64,000 bases of DNA from Amia ocellicauda (taxonomy: Eukaryota > Chordata > Actinopteri > Amiiformes > Amiidae), in assembly GCF_036373705.1 (NCBI RefSeq), contig NC_089851.1, positions 19,969,470 through 20,033,469 of the forward strand, read 5' to 3'. Position 1 is the stretch's first letter. Each line of letters starts with the position of its first letter. Both the position numbers and the translations under genes were made by a program. The notes below the pieces were generated by a model. The model searched no databases. It had not been told where the DNA came from and saw only the letters and a program-made list of their open reading frames with translations. Positions 10,000 to 52,694 of this stretch are shown one piece after another.

Positions 10000-10164
10000 A
10001 TGAGTACCTCTCTGGAGTACTCGTTTTCCAAAGAGCAGCAAACCATGGACAATCTGGAGAAACAACTAATTTGTCCCATCTGTTTGGAAATATTTACCAA
10101 ACCTGTGGTCATCCTTCCTTGTCAGCACAACCTCTGTCGTAAGTGTGCCAATGACATCTTCCAG
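10000..10164 (+). CDS. trim55: trim55 coding exon 1 (start, first half of RING)
   Basis: The start is the ATG giving [20 protein letters not shown], which matches the MuRF2 N-terminus. An in-frame ATG five codons upstream is not needed. Zinc ligands Cys25, Cys28, Cys41, His43, Cys46 and Cys49 are present ([18 protein letters not shown]). It ends CCAG|gtatgt, phase 0. Confidence 0.96.
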
Positions 10165-13100
10165 GTATGTATTTTAATAGGCATAGAATACAACTTGATT
10201 TACACCTTGATCTTAGCTTGTTATTGTATGTAGTTGTCATACCTTTTTATCAAAAATATGATCAAATATGAGTAAGACCAGCCACCAGTAAGCAGTTTTA
10301 AGACAACTTATTACATGTTGTAGTTTTTCAAATAAGGCAATTTATAGGGGGGGACTGCATTACATTGTTCTGTAATAAACATATTATTGCTTTCACTTAT
10401 TAGTAAAACCTTATGAAATGTGAAAAACCAGGCCCTTGGTACTGATAACAAAGTACTTTGAATCTGAGATCCATCTAAATACATTTCCCATGATAATTGT
10501 CTATAAAAGTATGATACTAGAAGCTCTGTGTTTCTGTATTGTGTTGCTCTGATTGAGAAACCAGTTTATGGTACAACATTTATGTGATATTGTAGTTATT
10601 CCATTGTATTGCTCTTAAGTGCAGAATAATAAGAACATGATATGCTTGATATTTATGAAAGCAAGCTGATTTCCCAGCTAGAATCCTAGTTTGTGGTTTT
10701 CCTTTTCCTTGCGCAGGCCTCTAATCCTTACTTGCCAACCAGAGGGGGTACAACAGTGGCATCTGGAGGTCGATTCCGATGTCCATCGTGTAGACATGAG
10801 GTTGTCCTGGACAGACATGGGGTTTACGGGTTGCAGAGGAACCTGCTGGTGGAAAACATTATTGATATGTACAAACAGGAGTCCACCAGGTGAGGCACGG
10901 TTCAGAATGATGGGATGTGAAATCAGCCAATCATTGCATCACATTTTTCTATTCCATAGTATTGTAAGACTTTTTTGTTTGTTGTTTTTGCAGTGAAAGG
11001 GAAACAATTATTACATTATTAACATAATACTTTACTTGGAAAGTCTTTCAGAAGAGCAAACTCATTGGTTTTTAAATTACAATAATCTGAATTTCAAATG
11101 TGCACTGTAATAATACAAATAAGACTAATAATCATAATAATATGACTATTCAGGTTCAAAACATATTTTTTGGTTAAAAGTCACCATCAGCAGTCTTATA
11201 CTTTCATTCTACATTAAGCACAGTTTGAGAAGAGACCTGTGTGTTTCAGCAAATCCATAAATTGACATGATTAGTTCACACTTTTTTGAGGTTCTCACTT
11301 ATGTTGCCCAGAGTATTTGTTTATATAAATATATGTATTTATATCACATTTACATCATCAGAAGAAGAAATGTGAGCAATCTTTCCGCTTTTAATGGGAT
11401 TTAAAGGCCAGTTAGGCCTATTTGTAATATCTAGGCAAGAGGAGAGGTTGTAAAACGAGGACAATTTTTTCTTCATTCTGACCTGTCACTTAAGTTAATG
11501 CTCACTCTATTTTCACTTTCCAGTAACAGCTTTCTAGGTGTTTGCTGCATTTTTGAGCTGATAAGTATATATACAGTAAAAACACAACTGAAATAAACCG
11601 TGATCTTATGATGTGATGCCCAAACACATTTCAGTTGAATGACTTTCCTTCCAGGTGGTAAGAACAGAGAGATAGTGTATGTAATTATGTTGAGGATATT
11701 CTGAAACACAAATTGTATAAGACTTTGATATTCTGAAATATGCACAGTAAAGCCTTATAGCAGTATTATACTGGATTCTTTTTTCTTTTTTTACAGTTCT
11801 TAGATGCCCCTCGAGCAGTTTGGATCAGTTATCAGTTAAAATTTTATTTTTCTTTCTTGTTAATAATACCTTATTCAGACCAGTAAGAACTTCTTTTCAA
11901 TCCAAAAAACAAAAACAAAGTTACTCTATATATGTTTACTTATTACATTTGATTAAATACATGGGCCAACTTGTCAGTTAAGGTAAAAACACTGAAACAT
12001 CGAACTGCTCTTGTTTGGACAATGCTTCGATGTAGCTGAGCGTGTTTAGAACTGTCCACTCTGTAGAAGGGCAGTGAGGTCACCCAGTTACAGCCCGGGG
12101 ATGACTCACTTGGCAGGAGGCATGTGGCTGAAGTCCCAGGAGAGCTGAACTCACAGCTGACCTCTTTACAAGGACCTCTCTTTTCTTAGCTGAGTTTTAT
12201 TTTTAATCATAATGATAGCAATTATCAAAATTGCCCCTTAACACTGGAGGGGCACCTGAAGCTTTTCAGATCACTTTGATATAGGCCTACCATTTTCAGT
12301 CCTGACACTTTGGTGTTTGATTTTTAGTTTTTGTATTCCTAATAAATCAACTAAAAGTCTTGAAAGTTTGATTATTATAAAACCGACCACTGCAAGAATA
12401 CTGGGTTAAAACAGTTGGTTCTTTCCCATACATCTAAATATTGTGGTGCTAACTGACAGCTGAGCTCAAACAGATGCTGTAGAGTCTGATCCAGGAATGG
12501 GTCGTCTTATCTGCCCTTCTGATAGGAACAGTGTTGAGGGGGAGGGGATGCAGGGCTGTCACACAAGTGCATCTTTCTCCTGATAATTTAATGGCTGAGT
12601 ACTTAGAATATAAAGCCTCACGGAATGTGTTTCATTTGTAGATACAACATAATTGTGTTAAGTATTAAGTATTTGTTTTCCTTACAAATGTCATTTAGAG
12701 GCAAACATTCTCAAATGAGAAAATCCTTTACCTTTACAAGTCAAGTTATCCTACATTGAACCTCATTGTTTTATTCACAGAGAAACATATTCCAGAAGGG
12801 AATTAGAATTGTGTTAGTGTTAACTGGTCAATTTTTGCTGTTTTATAATCATGTAAAATGCAAAGACAATAGAGTTTTTGGCAATGATTGTAGTGCTCCT
12901 CTTAGTGTTGCATTAAAACATACACAGTCATTTAAAATACTGTAGGCCTTTAAGTTAGTATGTAAGTTGATATGAAAAAAACATTGTTAAAGGAATGATG
13001 TAATAATCAAATTGTTGTGGTAACTATAATGGGAGTGATTTTCTTGAGATGGAATATGATTTATTTGTCACACTTTACAATAATGGGCACTAATTCTTAA

Positions 13101-16100
13101 AGAACTGATGTATGAATACCACATGAATACCTTCTGCACTTCATCTGAGTTCTGCTGTTAATTACATGTATAACAAGGTTAGGGTCAAGGTTAGGGATAG
13201 AGTTACAGACTTGGTTTGGTGTTGGGGCTTATACATGTGATCAGCATTAGAAGGTGGAAGTGCATGCGGCATTTATATATTTTTCCTGTGGGACTCATAC
13301 GTGACTGTAACGTTCAGTGTGGTAAATATGGTTGAACCAATACTTTGGGTTGTTGCCTTTAATCCCTGGTTCTTCAGCAGTAAATCGGGCCCTGAGAGGA
13401 AGCGTGACCAGCCCATGTGTGAGGAGCACGAAGATGAGAAAATCAACATCTATTGTGTGACGTGTGAAACGCCAACCTGCTCCATGTGCAAAGTGTTCGG
13501 GGCTCATAAGGACTGTGAGGTAGCACCTCTCACCAATGTTTACCAACGACAAAAGGTGAGATGTTTGTCTAGTATTATGTCGCTCTATGAATTTATCAAT
13601 CGTTTCTTAGACTTATCGCAGATGCCTGTGCAACACCATAAGGAGATTAATCTGGTGACACACTTTCAAATACAGTTTGTAACACTGAAGGAGGGAGGTA
13701 TGGCAAAATGACAAAATTCTCCCTCTTGCGGCACTTTGACAGTTTAACACTTGGCACTGCTTTGATGCGTTTTGTTTAATTTACAGGGTTCAGAAAAGAT
13801 CACCCACTCAGCCTGCCCACCCAGCCTAACAGGTCCCACACTTTGGTATAATAAATAAATCCATTCTTCATGGAATTTTGCAAAAGGACTATTAATACAT
13901 TATTTCACATAATTGTCCTGGAGAAAATACACTTGAGAAAAATAACAGTCCAACAAAGCCTCAATAGAACCTGAAGCTCAATAGTTCAATGTCTGTTCAG
14001 GGCTTTTAAGCAGTGAGGAAGAGATGAAAAAATGTATTTAACCTGTTGAGAGCACTTCACACACGGCCCTGAGGGCACTGACTGACTTTAACTGATCATT
14101 TAAATAATACCTTGGATGAGAATAGAAAGCATTCTTTGTTCTAGTCTTTAGTCCTGCTTCTCTGCATGTAAGGAAGGGAATGACCCAACTGAAAAGATTC
14201 GTACAGCTGGAAAGGGCTTGCTGGGCACAAATTGTATTTTTTCTGTGCAATTTCATGGGTAAATAATTTAATAATTGCAATAAAAGCAATTCTGATATAA
14301 CTCTCCGAAAGGAGATCTGTTATGTGTATACCAGCAGTGCGTTTTCTTTATTTTTGTTGTCTCCCTCTATCCCTTTCCAGTCTGAACTCAGTGATGGGAT
14401 AGCGATGCTGGTTGGGAACAATGACCGAATTCAGGGCATTATCAGTCAGCTGGAAGAGACCTGCAGAACCCTTGAGGTAGAACTGGCTGTGACTGGTCTT
14501 TCTCCTTCCCTGTAATGTTTGATCTTTTCTCCAAGGATTTGATTGTTTGATTTTATGATGCTGAATTCATATTTCGCTTAAAGAAACGGTGGTAAATATC
14601 ATTTTGTAAATGGAGTTACACTGGTTTGTCCAGGTTACTGATTCCCAACGGATTTAAATATTCATTTGAAAATAGAACCTCGTTTCCCTACAGCCTATAA
14701 TTAATTTTTCTTTTGTCATTTTAATTATCACGTAGACACATCCAAGTATGCAGAGTATGTTCTCACACGGCATTATGCCTAAATTCAGTGGCGTCACTAA
14801 TGTGAAGCCCAAAGACAATTTTCTACTCTCGATGGAATTAAATGAATCTCCTCTTAATTGAATAGATGCCACTGTTTGTGAGCTGTTCATAATTTTTGGT
14901 GAACATTGAATGCAGCGTCAATAAATACTGTTATTAGACTGCTGAAATAAGACATGCGTTTCATACCTTTCTGTGCCAGAATTTAAACGAATGCGACATT
15001 CTAATTATACATTATTGTCATGATTGCCCGTATAGAAGGTTTGTTTGTTTGTTTGTTTGTTTTTTAATTTCTGCTTTCATGAACAGCTCATCTAGCCTTG
15101 AACCTGTAAGGGATGGAGTGAACCACAATATTATATAAAAGTTATTCTTGCTTTTGTCAGATTCTTTCAGGGTGGGTGAAATACTAGGAAGATTTCGTTT
15201 CTGATCAGAGAGTACCCACAGAGGTTCAGGAGCATGAATGAATGAATGACAGCCTAGTCATGTGACCATCCCCAACAAAGGACTGTCATGTACATAATCC
15301 TTTTACACTTTGATGTGTAATATCGGTAATCATACATGTATACTTTCAATGTCTGAAAGGGGAGGTGGATCATCTTATTATTTCACTGATTAAGCAGATT
15401 ATATTTGCCTAATGGAGTATGTGTCTCTGTGATGTTATTTCAAGGTCCTGCTTTGTCCTGCGTCCTAGTCTATATGTCCGCATAATCCCCTGGTGTTCGT
15501 ATTGTTTAGATGGTTGTTCTGTCATTTAACTGACACAGCCTCTAAAAAGCTTGTATAAGCAGACTGCAGTGCAGGGTGATAGTGTTTAATGCAGGGTGTA
15601 GTTATGTAATATGCCTATAGAACTACTGTTCACTAGCCATATCAAGTTTTTGTACATTGAGATGAATAAATTATCTTACAAATTAAAACAAATAAAGTAT
15701 AGGGACCTGTCTGTCCATTTCAAGTATAATTTGAAATTAAACAGAGGAATAAGATAATGAATTACATGTATTTAAATCGGGAAGATGTAGAGCAATGCAA
15801 TATGTAAACATAACTAAATCAGGAGTATAAGCTGTATTCAGAGTTTAGATGTAAATCTATTTTAATGACTTGCCAGGCATAATTTAGGTATATGTGTGGT
15901 TCAGAAATGACTCATAAATCGCATTAAGTGTTAATAGCAGTCACCTCAAGGAGATATATGCCAGGTCCTCTTTATGTGGGTGGTGATAAATTTGTGCCAG
16001 ATACATCCCTGACTTTAAAAATAACTTTTCATACTGAGTGCCTTTTAGTTACTTTCTAGGCTGTTCACACATACGTAGATCTTTAAATAACATCTTTAAA

Positions 16101-19100
16101 AATATTTGAGTCGTAAACTTCCTATTGGCAACACATTGAATATGATATTGTGAGTCATCCTCTCTGTCGTTGTTTACAGAAGTTTCATGGCTGTCTGCCA
16201 ACTCAATAGAAGCTGTGAGGAAAATATTTAAATTAAGTTTCCTGAAACACAGAGACAGACTCAACCACAAAGTATTAAATGCAAACAAATAAAACACTTT
16301 AACAATATTCACTGAAACATGTTACTGTATTACAAAATAGTTTGTATAGAAATCTGCATAAACTTACCATAGGATTTATGGCAAAATTGCCTTGCCAAGC
16401 AAGTGACAATTTCATAATTGTAATTTTAAATATTTGTACAATATAATGGTCAGTCTGTGGACTATACAGCCGTCAGTCTTGATGTATATTAGCTCTTTGA
16501 GCGCTCTGAAGCCCTCAAGTTTAAAAATTGGTATCTTGTAACCCCAGGGGATATCTTAGACTTTTTTGTCCAGCTTTTGGCAATGATACTCAGTAGTTAG
16601 AAACTGTTTTTTGGAGGGAGATATTGTATTCACTAGAAATTCATGACTCATCTCCTCTTACTGCCATTATTTCAACTACTGTCAGACACCTTATTTTTCT
16701 TTAAAAAAGGATATGTTTTTTAAAAAAATGTCCAGATTCTGCAGTGAACACAAAGAATAATACCTTTTTTTTTTGGCTGGAGAATTGCACCTGTGATATT
16801 TAAGAAAATTGTTTTCAGATGCAATTTGGTGTTATGCTACCATTAGAGAGCTACTTCATACTGAGTTTCAGATGACTTTTCACCTTTTACGTTCGCGGTC
16901 ATGACTTCTGTCATTCGAAAAGTCTTTTTTATTTTCTTTTACCATGGGCTTCCATTCAAACATGAAGATATACCTTATAAAAATAACAAATACATTAATA
17001 CTTAAAAAAATAATCTAGAAAACTCTTTCCCATAGGAAAACTGCAGGAGGCAGAAGTCACAGGTTTGTGAAAAGTTCGATTACTTGTATGCGATCCTGGA
17101 GGAACGCAAAGCAGAGATGAGCCAGAAAATTACCTGTGAACAGGAGGAAAAGCTGGACTATGTGCAGAGACTGAAAAAGAAGTATGGGGATCACTTGGAG
17201 GTTGTGTCTAAGATTGTAGAGTCTGGAATACAAACCATGGACGAGCCCGAGATGTCCCTTTTTCTACAGGTACACAAATTGAATTGATTTATTTGTCAAA
17301 TGTAGGCATATCCTTTACTTGTACTAAATGGTTTGCAGATATTTTCAGCAAGGTCTCAGGTGACATATTCAATCCAGCTGTCATTTTGTTCATTTATTGT
17401 TCACTGACAATCAATCTAACCCTTTCTGGATCCACAAATATTATACATTCTCACCACACCCATAATAATAATGCAGGAAAAGACAGGGGAATCATGTCAT
17501 TGGTTTTCATTAGTATATTCAACATCTATTTTTTGATCGGGATGATTGCACATTTCTTCGTTTTGAGGAATAGGGAAGTCTTGACCCACCCTGGTCCTGA
17601 AGGTATTATTGGTTCCAGTATAAATCAATCATGAACATTTAAAAAACGAATTGTGTGTGAATTGTCATTAAGATACTGTTTGGGATGAGAACTCTAGCAC
17701 GCTGCAACCCTCAAAGGCTAGAGCTGGCCATTCAACCAAAATTAACTAATTGCTGGTTAATAACATATATAGTTATTTTAAGGCGGGCTGTAGGTTTCAT
17801 TTCAGAATTGGGGAGGACGCTTTCAATATTAGGGGGGACACCCCAAAATCTACGCCTATGTTTAAAGTCTTTATTAAGATTGAGAGTGATCTATAAATCC
17901 TGAAGGATTATGTCTCTCCAAAATAGTTTACAATCATTTAAATAAGTGGATATTTACTGAGCTCATTAAGTTGTAGAAATAAATACATGTATCCATGCCA
18001 TTGTCTAAATGCCTCACTTCCTGTCAGTGGAGAAGAGTTTCACCAAATTTGTGCAGTTGTGCACAACCAGTTTATTTATTTATTTATTTATTTTAACCAG
18101 AATTTAACTTTTGATTAAACTCCAAATATGTTGGCTGTTCAACAGGTGGCTATATTGGACCTGCATTTATTTTCAAACAATGGTTTAGTAGACAATATTT
18201 TGATAGACAAGGTTTCATTGGAACATATTAACTTCAGTGCTTACCTTATTATTTGAACAAACATAATCAAATACTATTTTAGCTTACTTCATTCTTTTCT
18301 GTTTTTCAGAATTCAAAACCACTGCTACAGAAGTAAGTATTTTATTGTAAAAGTCTATACTTTTAAACATCTCGAACAGCCATTAGTACAGAAAAATACA
18401 TTGCTGTGTTTATTCTTATAGAATTATTGAAGCTTCCAACACGTCTCACCTGGAGAAAGTGGAGCGCGGCTATGAGAACATGGATCACTTTGCCACCAGT
18501 TTTGAAAGAGAAGGGAGGGCCCTCCGGAATTTAGATTTTTTAAGAGGTAAAGATAATAGATTGAAGAGATACATGTGTGTCTTTCTGAAATGTACGCATA
18601 ATTTCAATGCCTGCCAATGGAATATTCATCCCACAGACAGATATTAATTAAATTGAGATGGCACGTACAAACAAAAAAACTTAACCGAATAATAAAACTG
18701 TGAGCAGATGACTAATAGAAAACAGTTTCTCTTGCAATCTGGCCTGTAATATGTGTTTACTTTTTTGCTTTGTCTCCTCATGACTTAAAGATGTTTGTTT
18801 TGGCCTAACAAAAGCAACATATTAACAGGCAATGCTGTCCTATTATGTCAATGTTCTTCTCGTCCCCGTACAGAGGAGGAAGAGGACGAGGAGGAGGAAG
18901 ACGAAGAGGGAGATGAAGAAGGAGAGGGGGGTGAAGAGGTTCACATGGAGCCAGGACAGTCTGAAGGAGAGGTGGGGAGGACAGATGCTGGGGTGCAGCA
19001 GCAGTTGGCCCCACAAACGGAAAGCACTGCTGACACGGCAAGTGCCCCCTCTGTGGAGACTCTGATCAAGCCTCCCGACACACCAGTACAGGTGAGCACT

Positions 19101-20992
19101 CCAGCATTTTACTGTGGTAATTAATAGATTTTTTTTCATGATATAAAATAAGTATTGCATGCTAGGTGTTCATCATCCAACATCACGTTGGATGATGAAC
19201 ACCTAGCATACAATAAATATTTTATATTATGAAAAAAAATCTATTAATTACAACATGTCCTTATGCACCCTCCTTTTCCATAGCCATGATTACCATTTCA
19301 TACCATTTAGGATTAAACTGCAGAATCATTGGCTGAACACACATATCCAGGCATAAAAAAGGTCAATTGAAATGCTAAAAAGGAGGCAGCGACCTATTCC
19401 AGCAACTCAAATAAACACATTTAAATCAGTGAAGTATTCAGTGAGTGACACAGAAGTGTTTAAACTCCTAGGATTAAGTTACAGTTTAATTATCATTGAT
19501 TTAACTCAGATTTTGGACTCTTCCATCCAGATACAATTACCTTTTTACCATTCTTTACATTATAGTCATTAAATAGGGAGCATATACTATGTATATATAA
19601 ACATTTTTAAAACATCTTAATTTGATATCACAAAAGTGAGTATTTGAATGAAGTGTAGGACACAATGTGGCACTACAGTGAATGTAGTGCTATTTCAGTA
19701 CATGAGAAAAAAAACTTCCACTTTTAACCAGCAGCTTCCAGGTGTTTATGCAGTTTGAAAGGAAATAGTTTCTCAGTTTTTGAAGGAACATTCAAAATAA
19801 CATGGCGATAGCTCAGCACAGCAGGAGGGTCCCTGGTGGCCCATATATTTAGCTGATAACCCTTATCAAACTGCATGCTCCATAAAGTATTCACTGCAGT
19901 AATTATCTCCTACTCTCTTGCATGAGTTTAAATTGCATGTCACCTCAAATTAAAAATGTATCAAAGTTTTATCATTCAATCAAACTTAATTTCACACAGA
20001 CCATTTTTCATAGTCATCCCAAAGCACTATCCAAATTAGTCAAGCTACAACAGGAAATGAGGAAAGCAGGAAAGGAACCTGTTGCCACATTAAAAAACAA
20101 ATAAATAAATAAAAACAGACACGATAGGTAACTGGAATCAAAGCTGCAGTAATTTGCACTAATATGATATCCCCAAACAACTACTCATGTATAAAATCTT
20201 CCACAACAACATAGTTCATGTTCATGAAACACCTGCATATCTGAAAAATCTGCCCACATAAATGTTATTATATAGCTTTAGGGTTTAACTTTGTTAACAA
20301 TATGTTTAGAATGTATTTTGATGCATCACTACATTGTTTGCGAGTGACTGGGTGGAGGTCTGCAGTGCAGTGTGGCCTTTCTGACCGGGAGCTGATAATG
20401 AAGGGCAGCATCTGGTTTCTCTTTGATCCTTCCCCCGTTGTCATTAAGGGAGCTGTTGAGCAGAGCACTGTGAAGACTGAAGGACTTCCTACACCTGCCC
20501 CTGCAGAACCCGTGCTGTTTCCTGGTTGGTATAAATCCCACATAGTGCCCACAGCCGGCGCCAGTGCAGGTGAAACCCTGACTAAGGTGGAAACTTCGGG
20601 GACAACGGAAGGAGATAAGCTACAGGATGTAGTTGGACCAGCAGAGAAACAAAGCTTGGCTGGAGCCAATAAGGAGTCTAGCTCATCCACTGCTGCCCCC
20701 CAGGTCAGTTACTAACCTTTGTACCAGCTTCTTCAGCGGCAATTATTATGCCTTATCATAATCTGACCAAGGCCTTCCCCAGTTGCACATCTGTTATAAA
20801 GAGAGGCTCTGGTCAGGCCTTTGCTAGCCCATTCTTAAGAGCCGCTACTTTAAATCACAAATTCAGACACATTATGAGTCTTTCTCTCCAGATTGAGAGA
20901 AACAATCTTCATATTATTCCTTCTGTAATAGTATTTTGTATAAACAGGGTTTATACACATACACACATTATATAGATAGACAGACACACACG

Positions 20993-21049
<57 letters not shown>

Positions 21050-22525
21050 AACTAAATGCAAAGTGAGTGAACAGAAGAAAAATTTACATCAAATCCATAT
21101 TTGGTGTGACCACCCTTTGCCTTCAAAACAGCATCAATTCTTCTAGGTACGCTTGCACACAGTTTTTGAAGGAACTCGGCAGGTAGGTTGGCCCAAACAT
21201 CTTGGAGAACTAAGCACAGTTCTTCTGTGGATTTAGGCAGCCTCAGTTGCTTCTCTCTCTCCATGTAATCCCAGACAGACTCGACGATGTTGAGATCAGG
21301 GCTCTGTGGGGGCCATACCATCACTTTCAGGTCTCCTTGTTCTTCTTTACACTGAAGATAGTTCTTAATGACTGTCGCTGTATGTTTATGGTCGTTGTCA
21401 TGCTGCAGAATAAATTTGGGGCCAATCAGATGCCTCCCTGATGGTATTGCATGATGGATAAGTATCTGCCTGTACTTCTCAGGAGACCATGAATTCTGAC
21501 CAAATCCCCAACTCCATTTGCAGAAATGCAGCCCCAAACTTGCAAGGAACCTCCACCACGCTTCACTGTTGCCTGCAGACACTCATTCATGTACCGCTCT
21601 CCAGCCCTTCAGTGAACAAACTGCTTTCTGCTACAGCCAGATATTTCACATTTTGACTCCTCAGTCCAGAGCACCTGCTGCAATTTTTCTGCTCCTCAGT
21701 TCCTGTGTTTTCATGCATAGTTGATTCGCTTAGCCTTGTTTCCACATTGGAGGTATGGCTTTTTGGCCGCAAGTCTTCCACGAAGGCCACTTCTGAGCAG
21801 ACTTCTCCAGACAGTAGATGGGTGTACCAGGGTCCCACTGTTTTCTGCCAATTCTGAGCTGATGGCACTGCTGGACATCTTCCGATTGCGAAGGGAAGTA
21901 AGCATGATGTGTTTTTCATCTGCTGTAGTAAGTTTCCTTGGCCGACCACTGCGTCTACGGTCCTCAACGTTGCCCGTTTCCTTGTGCTTCTTCAAAAGAG
22001 CTTGGACAGCACATCTGGAAACCCCTGTCTGCCTTGAAATGTCTGCCTGGGAGAGACCTTGCTGATGCAGTATAACTACCTTGTGTCTTGTTGCTGTGCT
22101 CAGTCTTGCCATGGTGTATGACTTTTGACAGTAAACTGTCTTCAGCAGCCTCACCTTGTTAGCTGAGTCTGTTCCTCACCCAGTTTTATTCCTCCTACAC
22201 AGCTGTTTCTGTTTCAGTGAATGATTGTGTTTCAACCTACATATTGAATTGATGATCATTAGCACCTGTTTGGTATAATTGTTTATTCATACACCTGACT
22301 ATATGCCTACAACATCCCTGACTTTGTGCAAGTGAACCTAGAAGAATTCGTGCTGGTTTTGAAGGCAAAGGGTGGTCACACCAAACAAGGATTTGATTTA
22401 GTTTTTTCTTCTGTTCACTCACTTTGCATTTAGTTAATTGATAAATATAATCTATGAACATATCTATTTTTGAAAGCATTCTTACTTTACAGCATCTTTT
22501 CACACCTGCCTACTTTTGCACAGTA

Positions 22526-22572
<47 letters not shown>

Positions 22573-24249
22573 CACACAATATATGAAAACCATAATATCA
22601 AGAAAAAACAATCTTATTTATTTGTTTATTTATGCATTTATATGTCTATCTTTAATAAAATGCATTTAAAAGTTTAATGAATGAAGCATACCGTTTTCTT
22701 GTAGACATGGACTAGTATTATATCTTTTATGTGACCCCTAACATTTTTGTATTGTTGGTTGTTTATTATGAGAATTAGCAGCAGTGTATTGTGGATGACT
22801 GTTTCTGTACTCCCAGCGAGATAAACACTTTAACAGGATCTAATCATTCTGTCTTTCTGAGTGAACTGCTTGTAAGGGAATAATCTACTTATACTGGTGC
22901 ACAATTATTTTTTAGATAATATAACTAATACCATATGTAGTAAAACTATCAAATATAAACAATAATTGGAGTCACAAAATTGTTAAATATAGTTTGTAAT
23001 GAAAACATTTATAATCCATATATATAAATATGCATATACATACAGTGGGTATTCTCTTATTCAGAATATGACCTTATGGGTGTATTATTCCCTGTATTCA
23101 TATAATGAGTAACTCTGCGTTGCTTGCAGGCAATTAAAACTATGATAAGCTAAGCCTTTCTTGTTTCCAGCTGTAAGTTACGACATTTAGTTCAAATCCC
23201 TATTTAAAGTGACAAATCAGGAAAGGTAGAGAGCCAGGCAATGACATTGACATTCTGACAACAAGATACTGTTGTTTCAGTCTGTGAACCTGTGATTTCT
23301 TTAAAAACAACAAGTACTTTATTTCAGATGGGAAGTTCCTCAATTGCACCTTCCACTGCTGCTCTGTTGCTCCAGGTTTAGTCATCTGCAATTGGACAAG
23401 AGCGTTATGATCAGAAAATGCAGTAGATGGAGTCTAGAAGCTTTTGATGTGACTGTTTACTCATGAGTTATTAAAATGATGTATTTTAATATTCTACACA
23501 CATGAAGCTTTAGCATCTTATTTTTTCACAGGAGCTAGCATTCTGGCTGACAGTTCTGGCATTGTTTATTATACTTCGTCAGCTTTGGAGTCAGATTCAG
23601 TGCGCGATTGTTACATTTATGGGTAGGATATTCATTTCAACATTCATTTAAATATTAACTAATTCCTCCAAACATGTAGTTTCTCACTATTATCAGTTTA
23701 CTTCAGGACAAACTGTTGACACAAGACGTTGCAGTAATGCTCTGTAAGATTTGGTGGCTGAATATTAAACTAGTCTTTCATCTGAGTATTTAAAATAATG
23801 GGAAACTACAGTTTTGTAGGGAAGCGCGATCTAATATTCCTAAGTGTTCTTTCGGATAAAAAAGTGGTTTCATCTCAAAGATAATGAATAGAATATGACA
23901 CTTTTTGACAAGTTACTTTCATTCATCTGTTAGAAAAATGTTTTCAAGAGAATCGTGGAATTGCGCGTTAAGTGTTTTTATACTTCTCAACACGTTCTGT
24001 AAGTGTTTTTTAAAGCTGTATGGTCAGTTTGTGAATTTAATGTGTAGGATTGTTCACCCTATTTCCAGTGTTACAGCTCAAGTTAAATATTGAGCTGAAT
24101 GCAACACCCACTGCCAGGATGTGACTATATTTGAACATTGGGCATTTAGATGTATCAGTATCTATTTGGTCAGATATGCTATTTATATTTGATAGTATTG
24201 ATAATCAAACACTTTTCTGCATTTTAAATTGTAAAAAAAATACAGAATA

Positions 24250-24322
<73 letters not shown>

Positions 24323-27300
24323 GATTTCTTAGCAGATGCCCTTGTCCAGGGCGACAAACTATAAGAGCAATATACACCTTGTCTCTCTCTCTCACATACA
24401 CACATACAACCTCCCCAACCCCCTATCCTGCTGTTTTTTGTTCCAACTGAGCACTCAGTTACTTAATTGAACCCTTAATTGAACTAATATTTTTTTTAAT
24501 CTTTTAAATGAGTCTTTTCATTATTTTAAACAGTAGGGGTTTTAAGTTAAGTATAGAATTGTATAAATAACTTATTAAGGAACCAACTCCTTTATTACAC
24601 AATTTATAAAGTCATATCTAAGCAGATTGTTACTTGAGAGTAATTGAGAGCTCATTTGGAACAAAAACAAGCAGTGTAGGGGCTCCTCCAGGACCAGGAT
24701 TGGGAACCACTGTTTTACACCAGTAAATTCCTTGACAGGAGAAATATGATAAATAGTCTGCTGTTCAGATGTCTCTTCTCATTTTGGTAGCTTTCTTAGT
24801 ATTTTAGCTGTGGTGAAAAATTTTGCTTTCTTATTGAAAATATGATGTAAGAAAAGTTGTATAATCTATAGATTCTAGACCAATTAACTATATAGGAATG
24901 TGTACACTGTAAGAAGTTAAAATAAAAATGCAAGTGTAACACATGGCTGCACAGAGACATTTCAAATTCAATAGAAGTTAGGATGGATCATGTGCTGCCA
25001 AATAGATACTCCAAAGACACTCCAAAGCTTACATCTAGAAATAGTGTAGGCTACACTCCCACAAGGAAGATTGAATAGGAAGTTTCAGAAATATGTGAAA
25101 TTGTATTATGCATAAACCTTTTATACAAATTAACCTGGGAGTAAACTCTTTCTTTAGAATTAACAATTCATAAACTAGTGTCAGTCCAAAGTTTTTGAAG
25201 ATTGATGAACATTTAACTGTGACTTACTGTACCTTAATTTCTGCTGCATTTAAATTGTATGTTTAAAAGATTTCCATAATGCGTGATTTAAAGTGAATTA
25301 AATCATGAGCATACAAACACATTATCAGAGTTGCAATTTAAGCATCAATGTCAGTGTATAGTTTCTCCAGGAGTTCCTCCTGTTTCTCGCCTTGAAACAT
25401 CCAACTATGTAACAGGGAGTTTAAATGTCAGAACAGGTTGCTGGCTGTTCTTAAGGCATGTCTGTCAATAAGACTGTACTCAAATAAATAAATAAATAAA
25501 TACATAAATAAATGGATGATGGACAGTATTTCTAAACTCTGTGTGCTTGGTCAAATGTCTGCAGTATATATAGATTCAAAATACAGTGGAGTGTGATTGT
25601 TGGTATACTGAATGCTACTTAAGATGTTTGGAAGAAAACATGAAAGTGTCATTTAAACTTATGAATCAAGGCTCTGGCTTTTCTTGTCTGTTGGAAAAGT
25701 CGCGGTCAGGAGTCTCTTCAAGAATTGGTGTCCTTGTAGGTCACAGACTAGGAAAAGCACTGAACTATGCTTTACAATAAAAGGTCACAAAGCATGATTA
25801 GTGTTGTGGATAATTCCCCTTTGCCCATGATGATATGATACTAAAGCCTCCTACTGTCTGTCCCAGGGCAATAATGCTCTCACCCACTGCAAGGAGTTTT
25901 TTTATATATTTTTTATTAAACAATGTTTAGTTATTAATTCAATATTTGTGTGTGTTCTACCAAACGCCTTGGTCTCAATTCATCTGAGCTACTGTGAAAC
26001 ATGCTTTAAAATGTTAATAGGACAAGTCTTTGAAGCTCCCTAGTCTCCAAATGAAGAGGGAAAAAAAAAACACATGTAGCTGGTCTTATGTTGAGTTGAA
26101 CATAAGTTGAAGTACTCTTCACTGAGACAATTTTTGAATAATTATGTGGGATTCCTCTTTAGAAAATTAATTGCATACAATTGTTCCAATTGAATCTGCC
26201 CCAAAACTTAAAGAAATGCCTGTGAGGTATTGGGCCTGGAAGGTTATTATATCCCCTCCTGAATTAAGTTAATGAGACTGTGATGTATTTTGCAGGATCC
26301 AAACACATAGATCAAAGGGGCATTGTCACACAACACACACACAGATCTCAAATGAGCAATGTTCTAAATTGTTATTACATTAACCTTGTCACAAATTCTG
26401 TATTGCAGTCCATTGAAATAAATAAATATGTGTTTACAAAGCAATTGTTTTAGCCGAAGAAGCAGCAGTGTGATATTATATAATCAAAAATAAAAACATT
26501 GACAAAGCATTTATTTTGTTGCACAGAATACAGCTGAGTGCAATTCTACATGCATCGAAGCGCCAGTAGAAGAAATGTTATGTAATCGAGGTGAGTGGGG
26601 GCCGCCCCTGTAGCTCCCAGAAACAAAGGCATATGCATTGAGCCTTCACAATAGCCCCCCATTGTAGTCTATAGAACAACTACCGCAAGTCCCCGCTAGT
26701 AGCATAAAAACTCTGCTTTATCCTATGCTTTCCTGGACCCCAGAAGCTGGCATTCACTTGCTTCAGCCGCACATCTCACAGCTTCCAGGTGCTGCACAAG
26801 GCATGCTTTAGCCCACGGGCTCCGCACCTCCAGAAGCCGCTATTCACTTGCTTTATCCTTATTCTCTCTGTTCCGTATACAGCGCTGCATTTGTCGCCTT
26901 TCATTTGATCCCATGGAGACGCAAATGGAGAGGCTACATTTTAAACGTGATGTCTTGAATGAGTCTTTATTTATACATGTGTGTATTTATTTCTGTATGT
27001 AGTGTATTTAAGACATCGTAATAGAATGAGGAGGTTCATGTGCTCTTTATGGAAGCTATGCGCCGCCTCCAGAAGCTGCAATACACCTGCTTCAGTCTTA
27101 TATCTCTCAGCTCCCAGGGGCTGCACACTGCATGCTTTATGCCTCCAGCTCGGCGCCTCCAGAAGCCCATGTTGCTTTAGCCTTACAGGTCCCAGTTTCG
27201 TCTCTTACAGCCTCCATTTCTAACATTTTATGTGATCCAATCGAGGGGAAAAAATATAGTCTACATTTTAAACCTGTTGTGTTTTGAAGGTGCCTTTATG

Positions 27301-28901
27301 TAGCCTATATGTGTATATATTTATTTTAATAACTAAGACCACCCAATAACAGGGCCATGCAGAGACATCACATATATCTGACAGATGCGGCCCAATCAAA
27401 GCGCGAGGCTGTTCTGGTTCCGACCCAAAACCCGGCCACTGTCCTCGCGCACAGGGACAAGCAACTTGTTGTTGTCATGAAAACAATGCCTGATGCGTCA
27501 ATCAATGCAGAATATTCGGCTGGCATAATTACAGTATTATTGATATACTCTTGAAAGACACAATAGGGCATCAGTGGTAGAATTTGGGTGGAAAACAGGG
27601 ACGTGAGCCGTTACTAGCCACTGCTGATTCGCCCGACAATTCATCCACAGCCCCGCAGTACAGTCTCCCTCCAAAATTGAGTCTCTGCACGGCCCAGTTA
27701 TTGCGTGGTCTTAGTTATTAAAATAAATAAATACACATATAGGCTACATAAATGCACCTTCAAAACACAACAGGTTTAAAATATTGACTATAATTTTTTC
27801 CCCTCGATAGGATCACATAAAATGCTAGAAATGGAGGCTGTAAGAGATGAAACTGAGACCAGTAAAGCTAAAGCAATATGGGCTTCTGGAGGCGCCGAGC
27901 TGGAGGTATAAAACATGCAGTGTGCAGCCCCTGGGAGCTGAGAGATATAAGACTGAAGCAGGTGTATTGCAGCTTCTGGAGGCGGCGCATAGCTTCCATA
28001 AAGAGCACATGAACCTCCTCATTCTATTACGATGTCTTAAATACACTACATACAGAAATAAATACACACATGTATAAAAAAAAGGCTCCTTCAAGACATT
28101 GCATGTTTAAAATGTAGCCTCTCCATTTGCCTCTCCATGGGATCAAATGAAAGGCGGCAAATGCAGCGCTGTATACAGAACTGAGAGAATAAGGCTAAAG
28201 CAAGTGAATAGCGGCTTCTGGAGGTGCGGAGCCCGTGGGCTAAAGCATGCCTTGTGCAGCACCTGGAAGCTGCGAGATGTGCGGCTGAAGCAAGTGAATG
28301 CCAGCTTCTGGGGGGGCAAGAAAACATAGGATAAAGCAGAGTTTTTATACCACTAGCAGAGACCTGCAGTAGTTGTTCCATAGACTACAATGGGGGGCTA
28401 TATCGTGAAAGCTCAATGTATATCCCTTTGTTTCCAGGAGCTACAGGGGCGGCCCCCACTCACCTTGATTGCATACAAATATCTTGTACTAGGCGCTTCG
28501 ATGCATGTAGAATCGAGATGATCGGGTGAAATTACAGCCTTCATTCTGCACAGCTGAAAATGTATGCAAAGATATAAATGCCTGGGTGGTGAATTATATT
28601 TCCTGTTTGATTGATAACAAATATGTGGTGGTGTGTCTCTTGACATTATGGATTTCTTCAATGTCTGTACTTCATGATTTGTATATTCACACACTGCATT
28701 CATTCGATTTTTCAGCTTACACAACGTTTTGATGAAGGGGATATTTTATGTAATGTTTTTCAGAAGTGAAAAGTGACAGTGTTAGAATGTGTTTTGCATG
28801 AGGAAGAAAGAATAATATGACAGTGTATTCACATTGTTATGTAGACTGTTTGTTGTTCATAACAATGGACAACATACAGTGTTGTTTCAGTAGCTGGTGT
28901 T

Positions 28902-29946: not shown

Positions 29947-30801
29947 GGGGGGGGTCAAATTAATGTTTTCTTTTAGGTAAATTGAGGAACTAAATTCTAT
30001 CTGACACTGAAACAAGAAACCTACTTTCTTATCCGCAAGCCTTTAGGATGTTAGGGTGCATGCTCTTTGCAGTTGTATGGCATGGCTTCTTCAAGGCATA
30101 CATCACGACACACTGTAGCATGCAGCAATGATTCTCAACACTTCCATGTACTGCTCACAGATGTTCATGCTGTCTCATTCAACTGAATTATATTTTGACA
30201 TGTATTTATTTATATAGTGAGTTAGTAATTTGTTACAGTTCCGCCCAGCAAACTAACACATTTTCAACCAGTCCTGGATAAATCATAATCATATGTAACC
30301 TTGCAGATTATAAACAATTTTAAAACTATAGGCTAAGAAAAATAAATAATATTACAACTACTACTACTCAGATTAATCATATGTGTTGTGGTACTAGTAG
30401 TAGAAATAAGTTTCCATTACATTCTACAGACAAGAGAGAAACTGGTACAACTAACGGCACCTCACAGTTCAATTTAAATTGCATCTATCGTAAATTGTCA
30501 GAGAAAGGCTGTTTTTTGTTTTGTTTTGTTAATTAAGCATACATTTAATGATATTAATTGAAATTCCATTAACAATGTCAGTTTCAATAAATACACAATA
30601 CACCATGATTTGATAGCAATTCTACCTGTAAGTCATCAATGGCATTATTTTTACATTTCCTTCCGTAAACCTATTTTCCAGATTGGTTCTGACGCTGCAG
30701 CGGGTGGACAAGCCGAAAGTCAAGCCAATTCAGAGGAGAAAAGCGGCGACGGACCCCGGCACGTCTTCTCCTTCTCTTGGTTAAACTCGCTTAAAGAGTA
30801 G
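10000..30801 (+). CDS. trim55: trim55 (MuRF2) gene, ten coding exons, 527 residues
   Basis: Muscle RING-finger E3 ubiquitin ligase that acts at sarcomeres and microtubules and signals from titin to the nucleus. Coding exons: 10000-10164, 10717-10889, 13381-13555, 14381-14476, 17036-17269, 18310-18332, 18422-18546, 18874-19091, 20449-20703, 30682-30801. All junctions are GT-AG and phases agree throughout. Domain order: C3HC4 RING (Cys25 to Cys80), MuRF family segment, B-box2 (Cys126 to about 160), coiled coil/COS region (about 172-330), Glu-rich acidic run (about 331-352), Ser/Pro/Ala-rich tail, and a last exon with [11 protein letters not shown]. The 23-base exon 6 and 234-base exon 5 are typical of the TRIM54/55/63 family. 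The long acidic tail and C-terminal motif select TRIM55 (human about 548 residues). No frame break is seen. Confidence 0.96.
10165..10716 (+). other. trim55: trim55 intron 1
   Basis: 552-bp intron, gtatgt donor to gcgcag acceptor. Nothing further is recognised. Confidence 0.85.
10717..10889 (+). CDS. trim55: trim55 coding exon 2 (end of RING, MuRF family segment)
   Basis: Supplies the last RING zinc pair (RCPSC, Cys77 and Cys80) and the conserved [20 protein letters not shown] block specific to MuRF proteins. It ends ACCAG|gtgagg, phase 2. Confidence 0.96.
10890..13380 (+). other. trim55: trim55 intron 2
   Basis: 2.5-kb AT-rich intron. A short GC-richer block near 12050-12180 contains a CAGCTG-type E-box context but nothing decisive. 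I see no repeat of known family. A few AGGTTAGGG-like words near 13180 are too short to matter. Confidence 0.75.
13381..13555 (+). CDS. trim55: trim55 coding exon 3 (B-box2)
   Basis: Encodes the B-box2 zinc ligands: CEEH (Cys126, His129), IYCVTC (Cys138, Cys141), CSMC (Cys146, Cys149) and the AHKDC end. It follows a tandem ...cagcag acceptor. The start at 13381 gives Ser-Lys-Ser-Gly-Pro, and use of the first CAG (start 13378) would add one Ser in frame. It ends AAAAG|gtgag, phase 0. Confidence 0.93.
13556..14380 (+). other. trim55: trim55 intron 3
   Basis: 825-bp intron with no recognisable element. Confidence 0.8.
14381..14476 (+). CDS. trim55: trim55 coding exon 4 (start of coiled coil)
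   Basis: Thirty-two codons, [20 protein letters not shown] onward, the conserved start of the MuRF coiled coil. Acceptor ctttccag, donor CTTGAG|gtagaa, phases 0/0. Confidence 0.95.
14477..17035 (+). other. trim55: trim55 intron 4
   Basis: 2.6-kb AT-rich intron. It holds short simple runs such as (TTTG)n near 15045 and (AATG)n near 15236. No mobile element is recognised. Confidence 0.75.
17036..17269 (+). CDS. trim55: trim55 coding exon 5 (coiled coil)
   Basis: Seventy-eight codons of charged coiled coil. They include [18 protein letters not shown] and end MSLFLQ, as in other MuRF genes, where this exon is also 234 bases. Acceptor cccatag, donor CTACAG|gtacac. Confidence 0.95.
17270..18309 (+). 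other. trim55: trim55 intron 5
   Basis: 1.04-kb intron. It contains a (TTTA)n run near 18070. Open frames here have no family match. Confidence 0.75.
18310..18332 (+). CDS. trim55: trim55 coding exon 6 (23-nt microexon)
   Basis: Encodes NSKPLLQ plus two bases of a Lys codon. The gtaagt donor is near consensus. A 23-base exon at this point is a family hallmark, and the phase (2) is completed by the next exon. Confidence 0.92.
18422..18546 (+). CDS. trim55: trim55 coding exon 7 (COS-box region)
   Basis: Reads [20 protein letters not shown], then DHFATSF..E...LRNLDFLR. This is the COS-box segment used by MuRF proteins for microtubule and sarcomere binding. Donor AAGAG|gtaaag, phase 1. Confidence 0.94.
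18547..18873 (+). other. trim55: trim55 intron 7
   Basis: 327-bp intron with nothing recognised. The preceding intron 6 is only 89 bp. Confidence 0.8.
18874..19091 (+). CDS. trim55: trim55 coding exon 8 (acidic tail)
   Basis: Begins with about twenty almost uninterrupted Glu/Asp/Gly codons (GAG/GAA/GAC run), then a Ser/Thr/Pro-rich tail ending DTPVQ. Human MuRF2 has the same acidic block after LREIDF-type residues. Donor TACAG|gtgagc, phase 0. The donor is followed closely by a long hairpin. Confidence 0.92.
19092..20448 (+). other. trim55: trim55 intron 8
   Basis: 1.36-kb intron holding the 135-bp palindrome listed separately. The rest is AT-rich and unremarkable. Confidence 0.75.
19117..19251. 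repeat. near-perfect 135-bp palindrome (hairpin MITE-like)
   Basis: The arm from ggtaattaatagattttttt to ctaggtgttcatcatccaac is mirrored after a 5-base loop (atcac, 19182-19186) by gttggatgatgaacacctag and onward. Only a few mismatches occur in about 65 pairs. Such compact palindromes are usually hairpin MITEs or young inverted duplications. No clear target duplication is seen, although the TTAAT-containing ends are AT-rich. It begins 25 bases past the exon 8 donor. Confidence 0.9.
20449..20703 (+). CDS. trim55: trim55 coding exon 9 (Ser/Pro/Ala-rich tail)
   Basis: Eighty-five codons. [12 protein letters not shown] matches the conserved DPLFYPSWYKG-type motif of MuRF2 tails, and the exon ends SSSTAAPQ|gtcagt, phase 0. 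The start is set by the cattaag acceptor after a pyrimidine run and by phase. The open frame continues upstream, so the 5' boundary is slightly less sure than the rest. Confidence 0.88.
21003..21046. repeat. (TA)n microsatellite at the left end of the Tc1 element
   Basis: About 22 TA units. They replace the expected outer part of the left terminal repeat of the adjoining transposon. Confidence 0.9.
21047..22530 (-). mobile_element. Tc1/mariner element, DD38E (Intruder-like), decayed, left end lost
   Basis: Inverted ends are visible: aactaaatgcaaagtgagtg at 21050 is mirrored by cactcactttgcatttagtt ending at 22435, and ggtgtgaccaccctttgcct at 21104 has its mirror near 22370. The right end runs on to the terminal cagtactg next to TA at about 22530. 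The matching outer 90 or so bases on the left are missing and a TA microsatellite stands there instead. The transposase gene is on the minus strand. Between the catalytic Asp of QHDND and the Glu of LNIVES I count 38 residues, the spacing of the DD38E group. Confidence 0.88.
21052..22112 (-). pseudogene. Tc1 transposase pseudogene
   Basis: The frame starts with [20 protein letters not shown] and continues through a paired helix-turn-helix DNA-binding region ([20 protein letters not shown], then GRPRKLT) to about 21711. A stop and frame changes follow. The catalytic half resumes at 21582-21052 with [18 protein letters not shown] and [12 protein letters not shown]. The first catalytic Asp context reads WTEES where the family has WTDES. 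Frame breaks plus this change show it is dead. Confidence 0.88.
22529..22565. repeat. (TA)n microsatellite flanking the Tc1 right end
   Basis: About 18 TA units beginning at the TA target of the element. Confidence 0.9.
23328..23375 (+). CDS. trim55: candidate trim55 alternative exon (16 codons)
   Basis: A tactttatttcag acceptor opens a 48-base segment. It reads [16 protein letters not shown] in the phase set by exon 9 (phase 0) and ends CAG|gtttag, again phase 0. The composition (Ser/Ala/Pro) continues the style of the exon 9 tail. The donor is weak (gtttag), and read-through meets TAG after one codon. This is a prediction from splice signals and frame only. Its value lies in pairing with the hydrophobic exon 156 bases downstream. 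Confidence 0.35.
23532..23651 (+). CDS. trim55: candidate trim55 alternative terminal exon with hydrophobic helix
   Basis: A strong attttttcacag acceptor opens, in the frame set by exon 9, 39 codons and a TAA. The first part reads [19 protein letters not shown], a membrane-spanning-like stretch of about 14-18 residues followed by a basic/polar turn and a second apolar tail. An ATTAAA hexamer lies at 23764-23769. If spliced to exon 9, directly or through the 16-codon segment, it would give a tail-anchored MuRF2 of about 527 or 543 residues. A possible donor at 23623 would change only the last residues. It may also be chance in a 10-kb intron. Confidence 0.4.
   Translation, partial: ELAFWLTVLALFIILRQLWSQIQCAIVTFMGRIFISTFI
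24250..24420 (-). repeat. (ATT)n microsatellite and SINE/LINE-type tail, minus orientation
   Basis: About 24 ATT units are followed by agcagatgcccttgtccagg and gcgacaa, the reverse complement of the tail seen at 5.3 kb. The microsatellite sits at the element's 3' end. Confidence 0.8.
24405..24715. mobile_element. degraded hAT-like MITE
   Basis: The right end reads gggctcctccaggaccagga, then ttgggaaccactg, a terminal motif common in non-autonomous fish hAT elements. The left part keeps the subterminal tttgttccaactgagc and cttaattgaacccttaattg phrases, but its terminal repeat is not readable. Confidence 0.5.
26543..28513. repeat. giant palindrome: 824- and 833-bp arms around a 314-bp loop
   Basis: The left arm 26543-27366 starts attctacatgcatcgaagcg. 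It is mirrored over its whole length by 27681-28513, which ends cgcttcgatgcatgtagaat, at roughly 88-90% identity by eye. The inner ends are gccatgcagagac and gtctctgcacggc. Each arm is itself two diverged tandem units about 329 bp apart (cagaagctgg at 26741 and cagaagctgc at 27070), so the order is A-B-loop-B'-A'. The two arms encode the same 80-codon chance frame. I see no target duplication and no transposase. It may be a foldback or long-TIR non-autonomous DNA element; the family is unknown to me. Confidence 0.9.
27367..27680. other. loop of the giant palindrome
   Basis: 314 bp of single-copy, GC-richer sequence between the arms. It contains gcatcagtggtagaattt, which resembles a tRNA A-box, but no B-box follows. 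No protein signal. Confidence 0.6.
28904..28958. repeat. (TG)n microsatellite
   Basis: About 27 TG units with one interruption. Confidence 0.95.
29391..29470. repeat. compound (TG)n(TA)n(GA)n microsatellite
   Basis: Three consecutive dinucleotide tracts within 80 bp. Confidence 0.95.
29864..29943. repeat. compound (GT)n(GA)n microsatellite
   Basis: A GT run is followed by a long GA run ending in a G-rich patch (gggtggggggggg-like). Confidence 0.95.
30682..30801 (+). CDS. trim55: trim55 coding exon 10 (canonical C-terminus)
   Basis: Acceptor ttttccag, then 39 codons and TAG. The terminal [14 protein letters not shown] matches the human MuRF2 ending, so this is the conserved main C-terminus and confirms the long intron. 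Confidence 0.94.
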   Translation: MGSDAAAGGQAESQANSEEKSGDGPRHVFSFSWLNSLKE

Positions 30802-31650: not shown

Positions 31651-32151
31651 TTACTTTCCGATGATCTCCATCATTTTCCTGTTGCTGTGTGCTTGCTGGG
31701 CTAACTGCTCCGCCCGAGCCATTTCTAGCACTTCTCTGAGCAGGTGGAAGGTCAGGTCCAGGGAAATGGGGGGCTCTTCGGACCGCTTCCCCCTTTCCAT
31801 CAGGTCTTCAATCTGGTTACCGGAGCTGCTCACAAACCGACTGATGTTACCAACTTTGCCTTGCAAAAGCCGCTGTGTGAGCTGCAGTTGCAGAGCCCTG
31901 TTGACGGTGGTCGAGGAGTCTTCAGGAGAGAGGTTGGCTGTGGACGGTGGGGGGTTCTTGTTGACATTGCCCAGCCGGATGAAGTACTCCTCTCCCAGGC
32001 GCACCAGGACGGGCAGGGGCTGCTGCTGCAGGTCGGACTGGGAGTCGGGAGCGTGTTGGACAGCGCCCGGGCTGTCGAGAGCTCTACATTCATGGCGTGG
32101 TAGAAAGGCAACGAGAAGAACCACGGTAGAAATGAGGAAATTGAGCTTCAT
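31651..32151 (-). CDS. crh: crh, corticotropin-releasing hormone precursor, 166 residues
   Basis: Secreted neuropeptide precursor. Hypothalamic CRH drives pituitary ACTH release through CRHR1. The whole frame lies in one exon. Residues 1-24 form a signal peptide (MKLNFLISTVVLLVAFLPRH, then ECRA). EEYFIRLGN at about 53-61 is the conserved cryptic-region motif. A dibasic site (GKR, ending at 123) precedes the 41-residue hormone at 124-164, which starts SEEPPISLDLTFHLLREVLE. Gly165-Lys166 at the very end supply the amidation signal. The start is the Met before the signal peptide; the open frame extends upstream into the intron without meaning. The hormone differs from the human form as I recall it only at position 38 (Met for Leu). 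The gene is complete and unbroken. Confidence 0.98.
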   Translation of the reverse strand: MKLNFLISTVVLLVAFLPRHECRALDSPGAVQHAPDSQSDLQQQPLPVLVRLGEEYFIRLGNVNKNPPPSTANLSPEDSSTTVNRALQLQLTQRLLQGKVGNISRFVSSSGNQIEDLMERGKRSEEPPISLDLTFHLLREVLEMARAEQLAQQAHSNRKMMEIIGK

Positions 32152-50820: not shown

Positions 50821-51275
50821 CCCTCTCGGTTTGCATGTACCATATCGGTTGTTCATGTGACTTAACTGGGCAGGGCAGGACTAGAGTGACAAAGGGAAAT
50901 AAGGTGGAAGCAGCAGTGTGAGCTTTGTCCTTAAATAACACATTACTGAATTACTTACCCACATCATCTGAGCAAGACATTATAGATGACTTTTTAAGTA
51001 TTTATCACATTGTGTCCATGGTTGACACCTATGGGGCCCCGTTTCTGTTAGACATCCTTTTGTGCACGGAGTAGAGCTGTCCCGAAGGGTACATTTTTAC
51101 CTTTGATGGTTTGGAATACATTACCGAATGAAGGTTCGAAGCTTTGTTGGTGCTAATGTGCAAAATTTATCGATGACGTCACATTGTAATCCTAGAGATC
51201 AAGGTTTGTGATCTTGAGGCTCAGCTTGTTGATCTGTGCTGTATTAGTGATATAAAATAATTAGTCAATCAACCC

Positions 51276-51806
51276 ATGAGAGAGATGGTGTGCATGCCAA
51301 AACCTAGGAGAGTTGAGACCGTAGAGCAGGAAAGTGTAGAGAACTGCTGGTTTACAGGGCGTGCAGAACTCATAGAGACATCCCAGGAGCTAGAATTGCC
51401 CAACAGGTTCCAACTGCTGGACACCAAGTTGGACAGTGTCAGCTCAAAGGGTGATGGGGGGGCAGTTGAGCACCAGAGCACCATGGTGCCCACTCCCCCC
51501 CAGAAGAAGGAGGTAGTTATAGTAGGAGACTCAATTCTTAGAGGTGTAGATCACACAGTGTGTTCTAGTGATAAGGAGACCCGCATGGTATCTTGCCTGC
51601 CTGGTGCTCAGGTTGCAGATCTCCCTAAACTAGTAGACGGGCTACTGGTCAAAGCCAGAGGGAATCCACTGGTCATGGTCCACATTGGAACCAATGACAT
51701 AGCAAAAGGTAGGACAGGGGATGAATACAAGTTGAAAGGATACACACAGTTTAGGAGGGACAGGCAAAATCGAAGAGGGGGTGGGGTAGCATTATACAGT
51801 ATGTGA
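51276..51806 (+). pseudogene. CR1 ORF1 esterase domain joined to endonuclease fragment
   Basis: The frame reads KKEVVIVGDSILRGVDHTVC (block I Ser in GDS), then a CLPGAQVADL segment and HIGTNDIAKG (Asn of the SGNH set, GTND), as in CR1 ORF1 esterase domains. It then passes straight into YTQFRRDRQNRRGGGVALYS, an endonuclease motif of ORF2. The intervening end of ORF1 and start of ORF2 have been deleted in frame. Confidence 0.75.
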
Positions 51807-51829
51807 AAAATTACATTGAGGCAGAAGAA

Positions 51830-52377
51830 CTCAAATTAGATCCCAGTAACGGAACAGAATCTTTGTGGGTCAAACTGAACAACAGATCTGGAGGATTAGT
51901 GGTAGAGTGTGTTACAGACCACCCAACTCAGATATTCAGCAAGATGTTGCATTGTACAGTGTAATCAGGACTGCATGTAGCAAGGATGTGGCTGTTATAA
52001 TGGGGGATTTCAATTTTCCTAACATAGACTGGGAAAGCCCGGTTGGGACTACAGAAGCAGAAATAGAAATGGTTGAGATGGTAAATGACTGCTTTCTAAC
52101 TCAATTTGTCAGGGAACCAACCAGGGAGAGGGCATGTATTGACTTGATATTTTCAAATGACCAAGATAGAGTCAGGGGGATAGTAGTTAGAGAACCAATG
52201 GCAAATTGTGATCACAATATGGTTAGCTTTGAGGCATTCTTTCAAAAAACAAGGTCCAAGTCTAAAACAATGGTCTACAATTTTAGAAAAGCAAACCTTG
52301 ACGGTATGAGGCTGCATTTAGAAGAGGTGGACTTAGACTGGAGCACACTGGATACAGATTCAGTTGAAAATGGATGA
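51830..52377 (+). pseudogene. CR1 apurinic-type endonuclease fragment
   Basis: Motifs RVCYRPPNSD, VIMGDFNFPNIDW and IDLIFSNDQD, then NCDHNMVSFE, are the Asp/Asn/His catalytic blocks of LINE endonucleases. It is separated from the preceding piece by a frameshift. Confidence 0.8.
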
Positions 52378-52694
52378 GTATATTTTAAGAATATACTACT
52401 TGAGGCTCAGGAGAAATTTATACCAAAACTTAGCAAATTGAGTACCAGAAATCATTGGCCAAAATGGTTTAATAGAGGTATGCAAAAAAAATCAAGAGAA
52501 AGAAAATGTTGTATAGCGCATACAAAAGGGATGGAGACGAAACAAAATACAAAGAATATGTTGAGCTGCAAAGAGATCTTAAGAAAGGGATCAGGAAAGC
52601 AAAGAGGGAAATAGAAAGAAACAGCTCTTGGAGCTAAAGCTAATGCAAAGAGCTTTTTCAATACTACAACAGCAAGCGGTCAATAAAGGAGGAA

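Follow-up and report, generated by a model that had tools for sequence, protein, structure and literature searches.

A probable frame-shifting exon of trim55 in Amia ocellicauda that would encode the hydrophobic C-terminus of MURF2B (p60B)

The window analysed here, a stretch of 64,000 nucleotides of Amia ocellicauda DNA (contig NC_089851.1, positions 19,969,470 to 20,033,469), contains, on its forward strand, the coding region of a trim55 gene. In a gene model built on GT-AG boundaries, nine exons lie between positions 10000 and 20703 and the last coding exon begins at 30682. The coding part of exon 1 (10000..10164) carries the start codon and the RING (Pfam PF13445, E 1.8e-10 on the spliced protein), the remainder of which is encoded by exon 2 (10717..10889); exon 3 (13381..13555) encodes the B-box, also recognised by Pfam, and exon 4 (14381..14476) leads to exon 5 (17036..17269), which specifies the coiled coil. 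There follow the 23-nt exon 6 (18310..18332), exon 7 (18422..18546), the acidic exon 8 (18874..19091) and exon 9 (20449..20703), which ends in phase 0 at a strong donor (CAG/gtcagt). Between exon 9 and exon 11 (coding part 30682..30801) lies a further segment of 91 nt (23532..23622), referred to below as exon 10, which is the main subject of this analysis. When it is left out, the model gives a protein of 527 residues with the C-terminus FSFSWLNSL, which is the MURF2A (p60A) form.

The spliced protein contains both RING and B-box according to Pfam, and its nearest solved structures include the B-boxes of TRIM63 and TRIM54 (the top three matches to exon 3 are B-box chains of these two proteins) and the coiled coil of TRIM63 (chain 4m3l, matched by exon 5). 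These matches alone cannot tell TRIM55 from TRIM54 or TRIM63, which share the same RING/B-box/coiled-coil family architecture. Published 19-mers specific to MuRF2 do match the gene: the shRNA target common to MURF2 forms is found at 10864 in exon 2 with three mismatches, and the p60A 19-mer matches the junction of exons 9 and 11 with four mismatches of 19. A further published 19-mer, specific to MURF2A, has no match in the window at up to five mismatches. Downstream, trim55 is adjoined on the opposite strand by a crh-like gene (31651-32100, CRF family PF00473, E 1.1e-15), and we take this TRIM55-CRH neighbourhood as support for the identification of the gene as TRIM55/MuRF2.

The window also houses several repeats. 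A Tc1/mariner-type transposon lies on the reverse strand of the intron that separates exon 9 from exon 10 (21052-22175), its reading frames split over several frames, with a match to Pfam HTH_Tnp_Tc3_2 on 21711-22175. A large imperfect inverted repeat (26579-28475) occupies part of the next intron, which leads from exon 10 to exon 11; five of the eight arm pairs listed are nested blocks of 82-290 nt that are 87-97% complementary, and once transcribed the repeat could form a long hairpin behind the alternative exon. Further away, at 59409-60371 on the reverse strand, a Tc1-like transposase frame runs uninterrupted for 320 codons, with HTH and partial DDE_3 matches, and this element could have been active recently. 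Open frames at 51261-54046 on the forward strand resemble a non-LTR retrotransposon; 52644-53201, the sole piece of them that was scanned, gave no Pfam match.

The first-pass annotation had drawn attention to two acceptor-led segments in this intron, 156 bp apart, starting at 23328 and 23532, both said to continue the phase left by exon 9, and inspection of the frames bore this out. Exon 9 ends in STAAPQ/gtcagt at 20703, in phase 0; segment 1 (23328..23375) supplies 16 codons in that phase, and the frame from 23532 is open for 39 codons up to a TAA ending at 23651. Only the first 19 of those 39 make up the peptide that had been quoted for the second segment with a stop to follow. The ATTAAA reported beyond this segment is indeed present, at 23764.

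The two segments have splice sites of very unequal quality, as judged by matrices whose scores and ranks are approximate. Of the 623 AG sites that lie between exons 9 and 11, the acceptor of 23532 ranks fourth. Its donor at 23622 (TGG/gtagga), which precedes the TAA at 23651, is a moderate one that ranks 32nd of 605 GT sites. For segment 1 the corresponding ranks are 75 of 623 for the acceptor and 196 of 605 for its weak donor (CAG/gtttag). The whole of this intron was scanned for acceptor/donor pairs 30-300 nt apart enclosing an open phase-0 frame. At the two scores of 23532-23622 itself this exon is the only such pair; in dinucleotide shuffles of the intron a pair of this quality was found in one of 60 (five pairs in that one), and none of the 60 yielded a pair that encoded 30 residues or more and whose hydropathy, taken over 15 residues, peaked at 2.4 or higher. 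At the scores of segment 1 the intron holds 42 phase-0 candidates, segment 1 included, of which four overlap exon 23532-23622. The shuffles gave a mean of 14.1 at these scores (range 5-28), and the excess in the real intron is probably due to its transposons and other repeats. The second segment is more than chance and segment 1 is not; 23532-23622 is very probably a real exon, while segment 1 is probably not an exon.

Neither the 39-residue tail nor exon 9 joined to both segments matched any Pfam family at E values up to 10. A search of the PDB with the tail returned six sequences, all AlkD, at E 1 to 1.3, which were taken as chance. In the genome (988 Mb, 385 contigs), searches for a second copy of exon 10 gave one match each by DNA and by protein, both at the trim55 locus; this sets the exon apart from TRIM63 (MuRF1) and TRIM54 (MuRF3), although a strongly diverged copy could escape such a search.

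The decisive evidence for the second segment is its match to published mammalian MURF2B. The variants of MuRF2 are p60A, p60B, p50A and p27A, of which p60B owes its different C-terminus to an extra exon (PMC7555135). MURF2B/p60B, already described from human and mouse, is an isoform of this muscle ubiquitin ligase whose C-terminus is called "very hydrophobic" and carries a motif (LIR) for interaction with the autophagy protein LC3 (PMC3790703, PMC3353113); the human accession is named as AJ431704, the human tail constructs comprise amino acids 505-537, and the LIR that binds LC3 is located at amino acids 522-526 (PMC3790703). An shRNA target of 19 nucleotides is printed in the same paper as matching both mouse and human MURF2B C-terminal cDNA (PMC3790703). 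At up to three mismatches its sole match in the window is at 23582-23600 on the forward strand (GCTTTGGAGTCAGATTCAG, 16 of 19 bases identical), in frame inside exon 10, and it was matched in none of 100 shuffles. The proposal that intron 9 encodes an alternative, hydrophobic MuRF2 C-terminus, which would replace FSFSWLNSL, is upheld by exon 10 and by this match. What cannot be sustained is the accompanying remark that no described isoform of this kind was known.

The three differing bases change one encoded residue, so that LWSQIQ in Amia ocellicauda stands in place of the IWSQIQ encoded by the oligonucleotide, this 19-mer being the extent of the tail comparison. The conservation of exon 10, as judged from one 19-mer, the tail length and the position, is about that of the common MURF2 19-mer in exon 2 (three mismatches) and of the 9/11 junction 19-mer (four), the probe for the latter being the mouse/rat p60A junction sequence from PMC3353113. 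The LWSQI at 23583..23597 occupies positions 18-22 of the predicted tail and would coincide with human amino acids 522-526 if the human tail starts at 505, the human LIR itself presumably being the WSQI stretch. LWSQI is the likely counterpart of the human LC3-interacting region. Acidic neighbours are common in LIRs. The LWSQI motif lacks them, which counts against reading it as an LIR.

If exon 10 is spliced to 30682, its 91 nt, not being a multiple of three, contribute 30 residues and one base, and exon 11 is then read in a shifted frame as D-W-F-stop, giving a tail of 33 residues with LWSQI at 18-22. When exon 10 is skipped, exon 11 is read in the frame IGSDAAAG of p60A, so that under this arrangement the first bases of exon 11 are translated in two frames. 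The p50A and p60A siRNA sequences for mouse/rat have CAGATTGGAT in common on their 3' sides, which agrees with a presumed exon 11 boundary at ATTGG in these species also. Reading through to 23651 would instead give a tail of 39 residues, and inclusion of segment 1 one of 49 or 55. The human construct likewise has 33 residues, and its LIR falls at 18-22 if the tail begins at 505, so the cassette arrangement fits best. The human tail would start at 505 on the grounds that the A and B tail constructs both begin there; construct borders need not equal exon borders, because 497 and 504 have also been used, in a C-terminal deletion (1-497) and for the B antibody (504-536) respectively (PMC3790703).

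The best explanation of these results is that the segment is exon 10 of trim55, that it lies between exons 9 and 11 as the alternative exon of MURF2B (p60B), and that it is a cassette. We put the probability of this reading, cassette structure included, at roughly 0.86, the cassette part depending on a human tail start at 505. The same isoform might alternatively be produced with exon 10 as a terminal exon, read to the TAA at 23651 and polyadenylated after the ATTAAA at 23764, as had first been supposed. The frame is indeed open to that point and the hexamer is there, but AATAAA or ATTAAA occurs in this intron about 0.84 times per 300 nt (28 in total), so that one nearby is unremarkable; the usable donor at 23622 comes ahead of the stop, and the 33 residues of the human tail construct equal the cassette length and not 39. 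This alternative is accordingly unlikely, and exon 10 is most likely, on the comparison with the human construct, a frame-shifting cassette joined to exon 11. A still smaller likelihood attaches to the two-exon arrangement of the first-pass annotation, in which segments 1 and 2, both in phase 0 and 156 bp apart, are spliced together to make a longer tail. Segment 1 has a weak donor and is one of 42 equal candidates, and its inclusion would move LWSQI to tail positions 34-38 instead of 18-22, in a tail for whose 49 or 55 residues there is no room in the 33 of the human construct. That the open frame is a mere accident of the intron seems barely credible: brief open frames bounded by splice-like sites abound there, as the 42 candidates at loose scores attest, but an in-frame match to published MURF2B cDNA, in the sole pair at its own scores, argues strongly to the contrary.

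The exon, its frame, the strength of its splice sites and its match to mammalian MURF2B are read directly from the DNA; the splicing of the transcript in Amia ocellicauda, the binding of LC3 by its product and the function of that product would presumably follow the mammalian pattern. Were exon 10 skipped, exons 9 and 11 would be joined without a change of frame and yield MURF2A (p60A), while inclusion would shift the frame so that exon 11 is read D-W-F-stop. The first 488 residues, identical in the two forms, would be followed either by the 39-residue A tail or by the much more hydrophobic B tail of 33 residues with its LWSQI motif. If C2C12 myoblasts are a guide, the B form may bind LC3 and be placed on vesicles positive for p62, NBR1 and LC3, and the ratio of A to B may shift protein turnover between autophagy and the proteasome. 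In the mammalian work, GFP-LC3 and a GST fusion of the MURF2B tail co-precipitate in RIPA buffer, and tagged human MURF2B is found in mouse C2C12 cells on vesicles with p62, LC3 and NBR1, a location that also depends on the RING cysteines; myoblasts have high levels of MURF2B, and myotubes of MURF2A (PMC3790703). The function published for this tail is to bind LC3 and to localise to autophagic vesicles.

The first-pass annotation had suggested tethering to the sarcoplasmic reticulum or another membrane. It is possible, if doubtful, that the B tail acts as a genuine tail anchor which inserts into the ER/SR, the endosome or the phagophore, whether or not it also binds LC3; this would be compatible with the assignment of the exon to MURF2B. 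Residues 2-20 of the tail have a Kyte-Doolittle mean of 1.78 and a favourable Wimley-White octanol sum of -13.5, and the 15-residue Kyte-Doolittle peak of the B tail, at 2.42, is the highest in the protein, as against -0.17 for the A tail. The finding of MURF2B on vesicles in C2C12 cells (PMC3790703) is consistent with insertion. However, the 19-residue hydropathy of the RING region is higher still (1.85), and the hydrophobic stretch of the tail is interrupted by Arg and Gln. The co-precipitation of the GST-tail fusion with GFP-LC3 in RIPA buffer and the need for the RING cysteines (PMC3790703) likewise argue against an anchor, and insertion of the tail would tend to bury WSQI or to expose it lumenally. 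If the tail spanned a membrane, cytosolic LC3 could probably no longer reach the LIR, and therefore the two properties can be tested against each other. Among the titles and abstract openings returned by a literature search for an anchored or transmembrane MuRF2, none proposes one, and neither "transmembrane" nor "anchor" is used in the examined text of PMC3790703 or PMC3353113. The tail-anchored protein in PMC4354305 is UBE2J1, and the membrane anchor in PMC4771757 is LC3.

Regulation of exon 10 by MBNL proteins may also be envisaged. Segment 1 contains, at 23357-23371, the sequence TGCTGCTCTGTTGCT, in which three YGCY motifs fall within 15 nt, about 160 nt upstream of exon 10. No other such cluster exists between exons 9 and 11; the whole window has seven. 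The density of YGCY near the exon is not raised, with three motifs in the 300 nt upstream and one in the 300 nt downstream, the intron average being 2.98. In mouse, loss of Mbnl1 changes the splicing of Trim55, at the counterpart of exon 10 or at another exon (PMC4356957), and in Mbnl3-deficient hearts the events tested, that in Trim55 included, showed no significant change (PMC4971533). To regard the cluster in segment 1 as an MBNL site acting on exon 10 is speculation. A more elaborate scheme would combine these ideas: the conserved MURF2B tail would anchor the protein in a membrane, its last turn serving also as the LC3 motif, splicing would choose between soluble MuRF2A and inserted MuRF2B, insertion and LC3 binding would be mutually exclusive, and MBNL proteins, acting through the upstream YGCY cluster, would repress the exon during muscle maturation. 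We consider this scheme as a whole improbable.

Exon 10 of trim55 is, then, very probably one more species' copy of the exon of an isoform already known as MURF2B/p60B, and not a new isoform. Its predicted product resembles human MURF2B in having a C-terminus from an extra exon, a tail of 33 residues by construct coordinates, WSQI at the position of the reported LIR, a very hydrophobic character and a matching 19-mer. The exon copy provides a useful point of conservation, and exact splice sites for experiments in fish. Given its source in a ray-finned fish, the MURF2B tail would be about as old as the bony vertebrates, with both WSQI and the alternative exon kept, and such an age would support a real function for this little-studied isoform.
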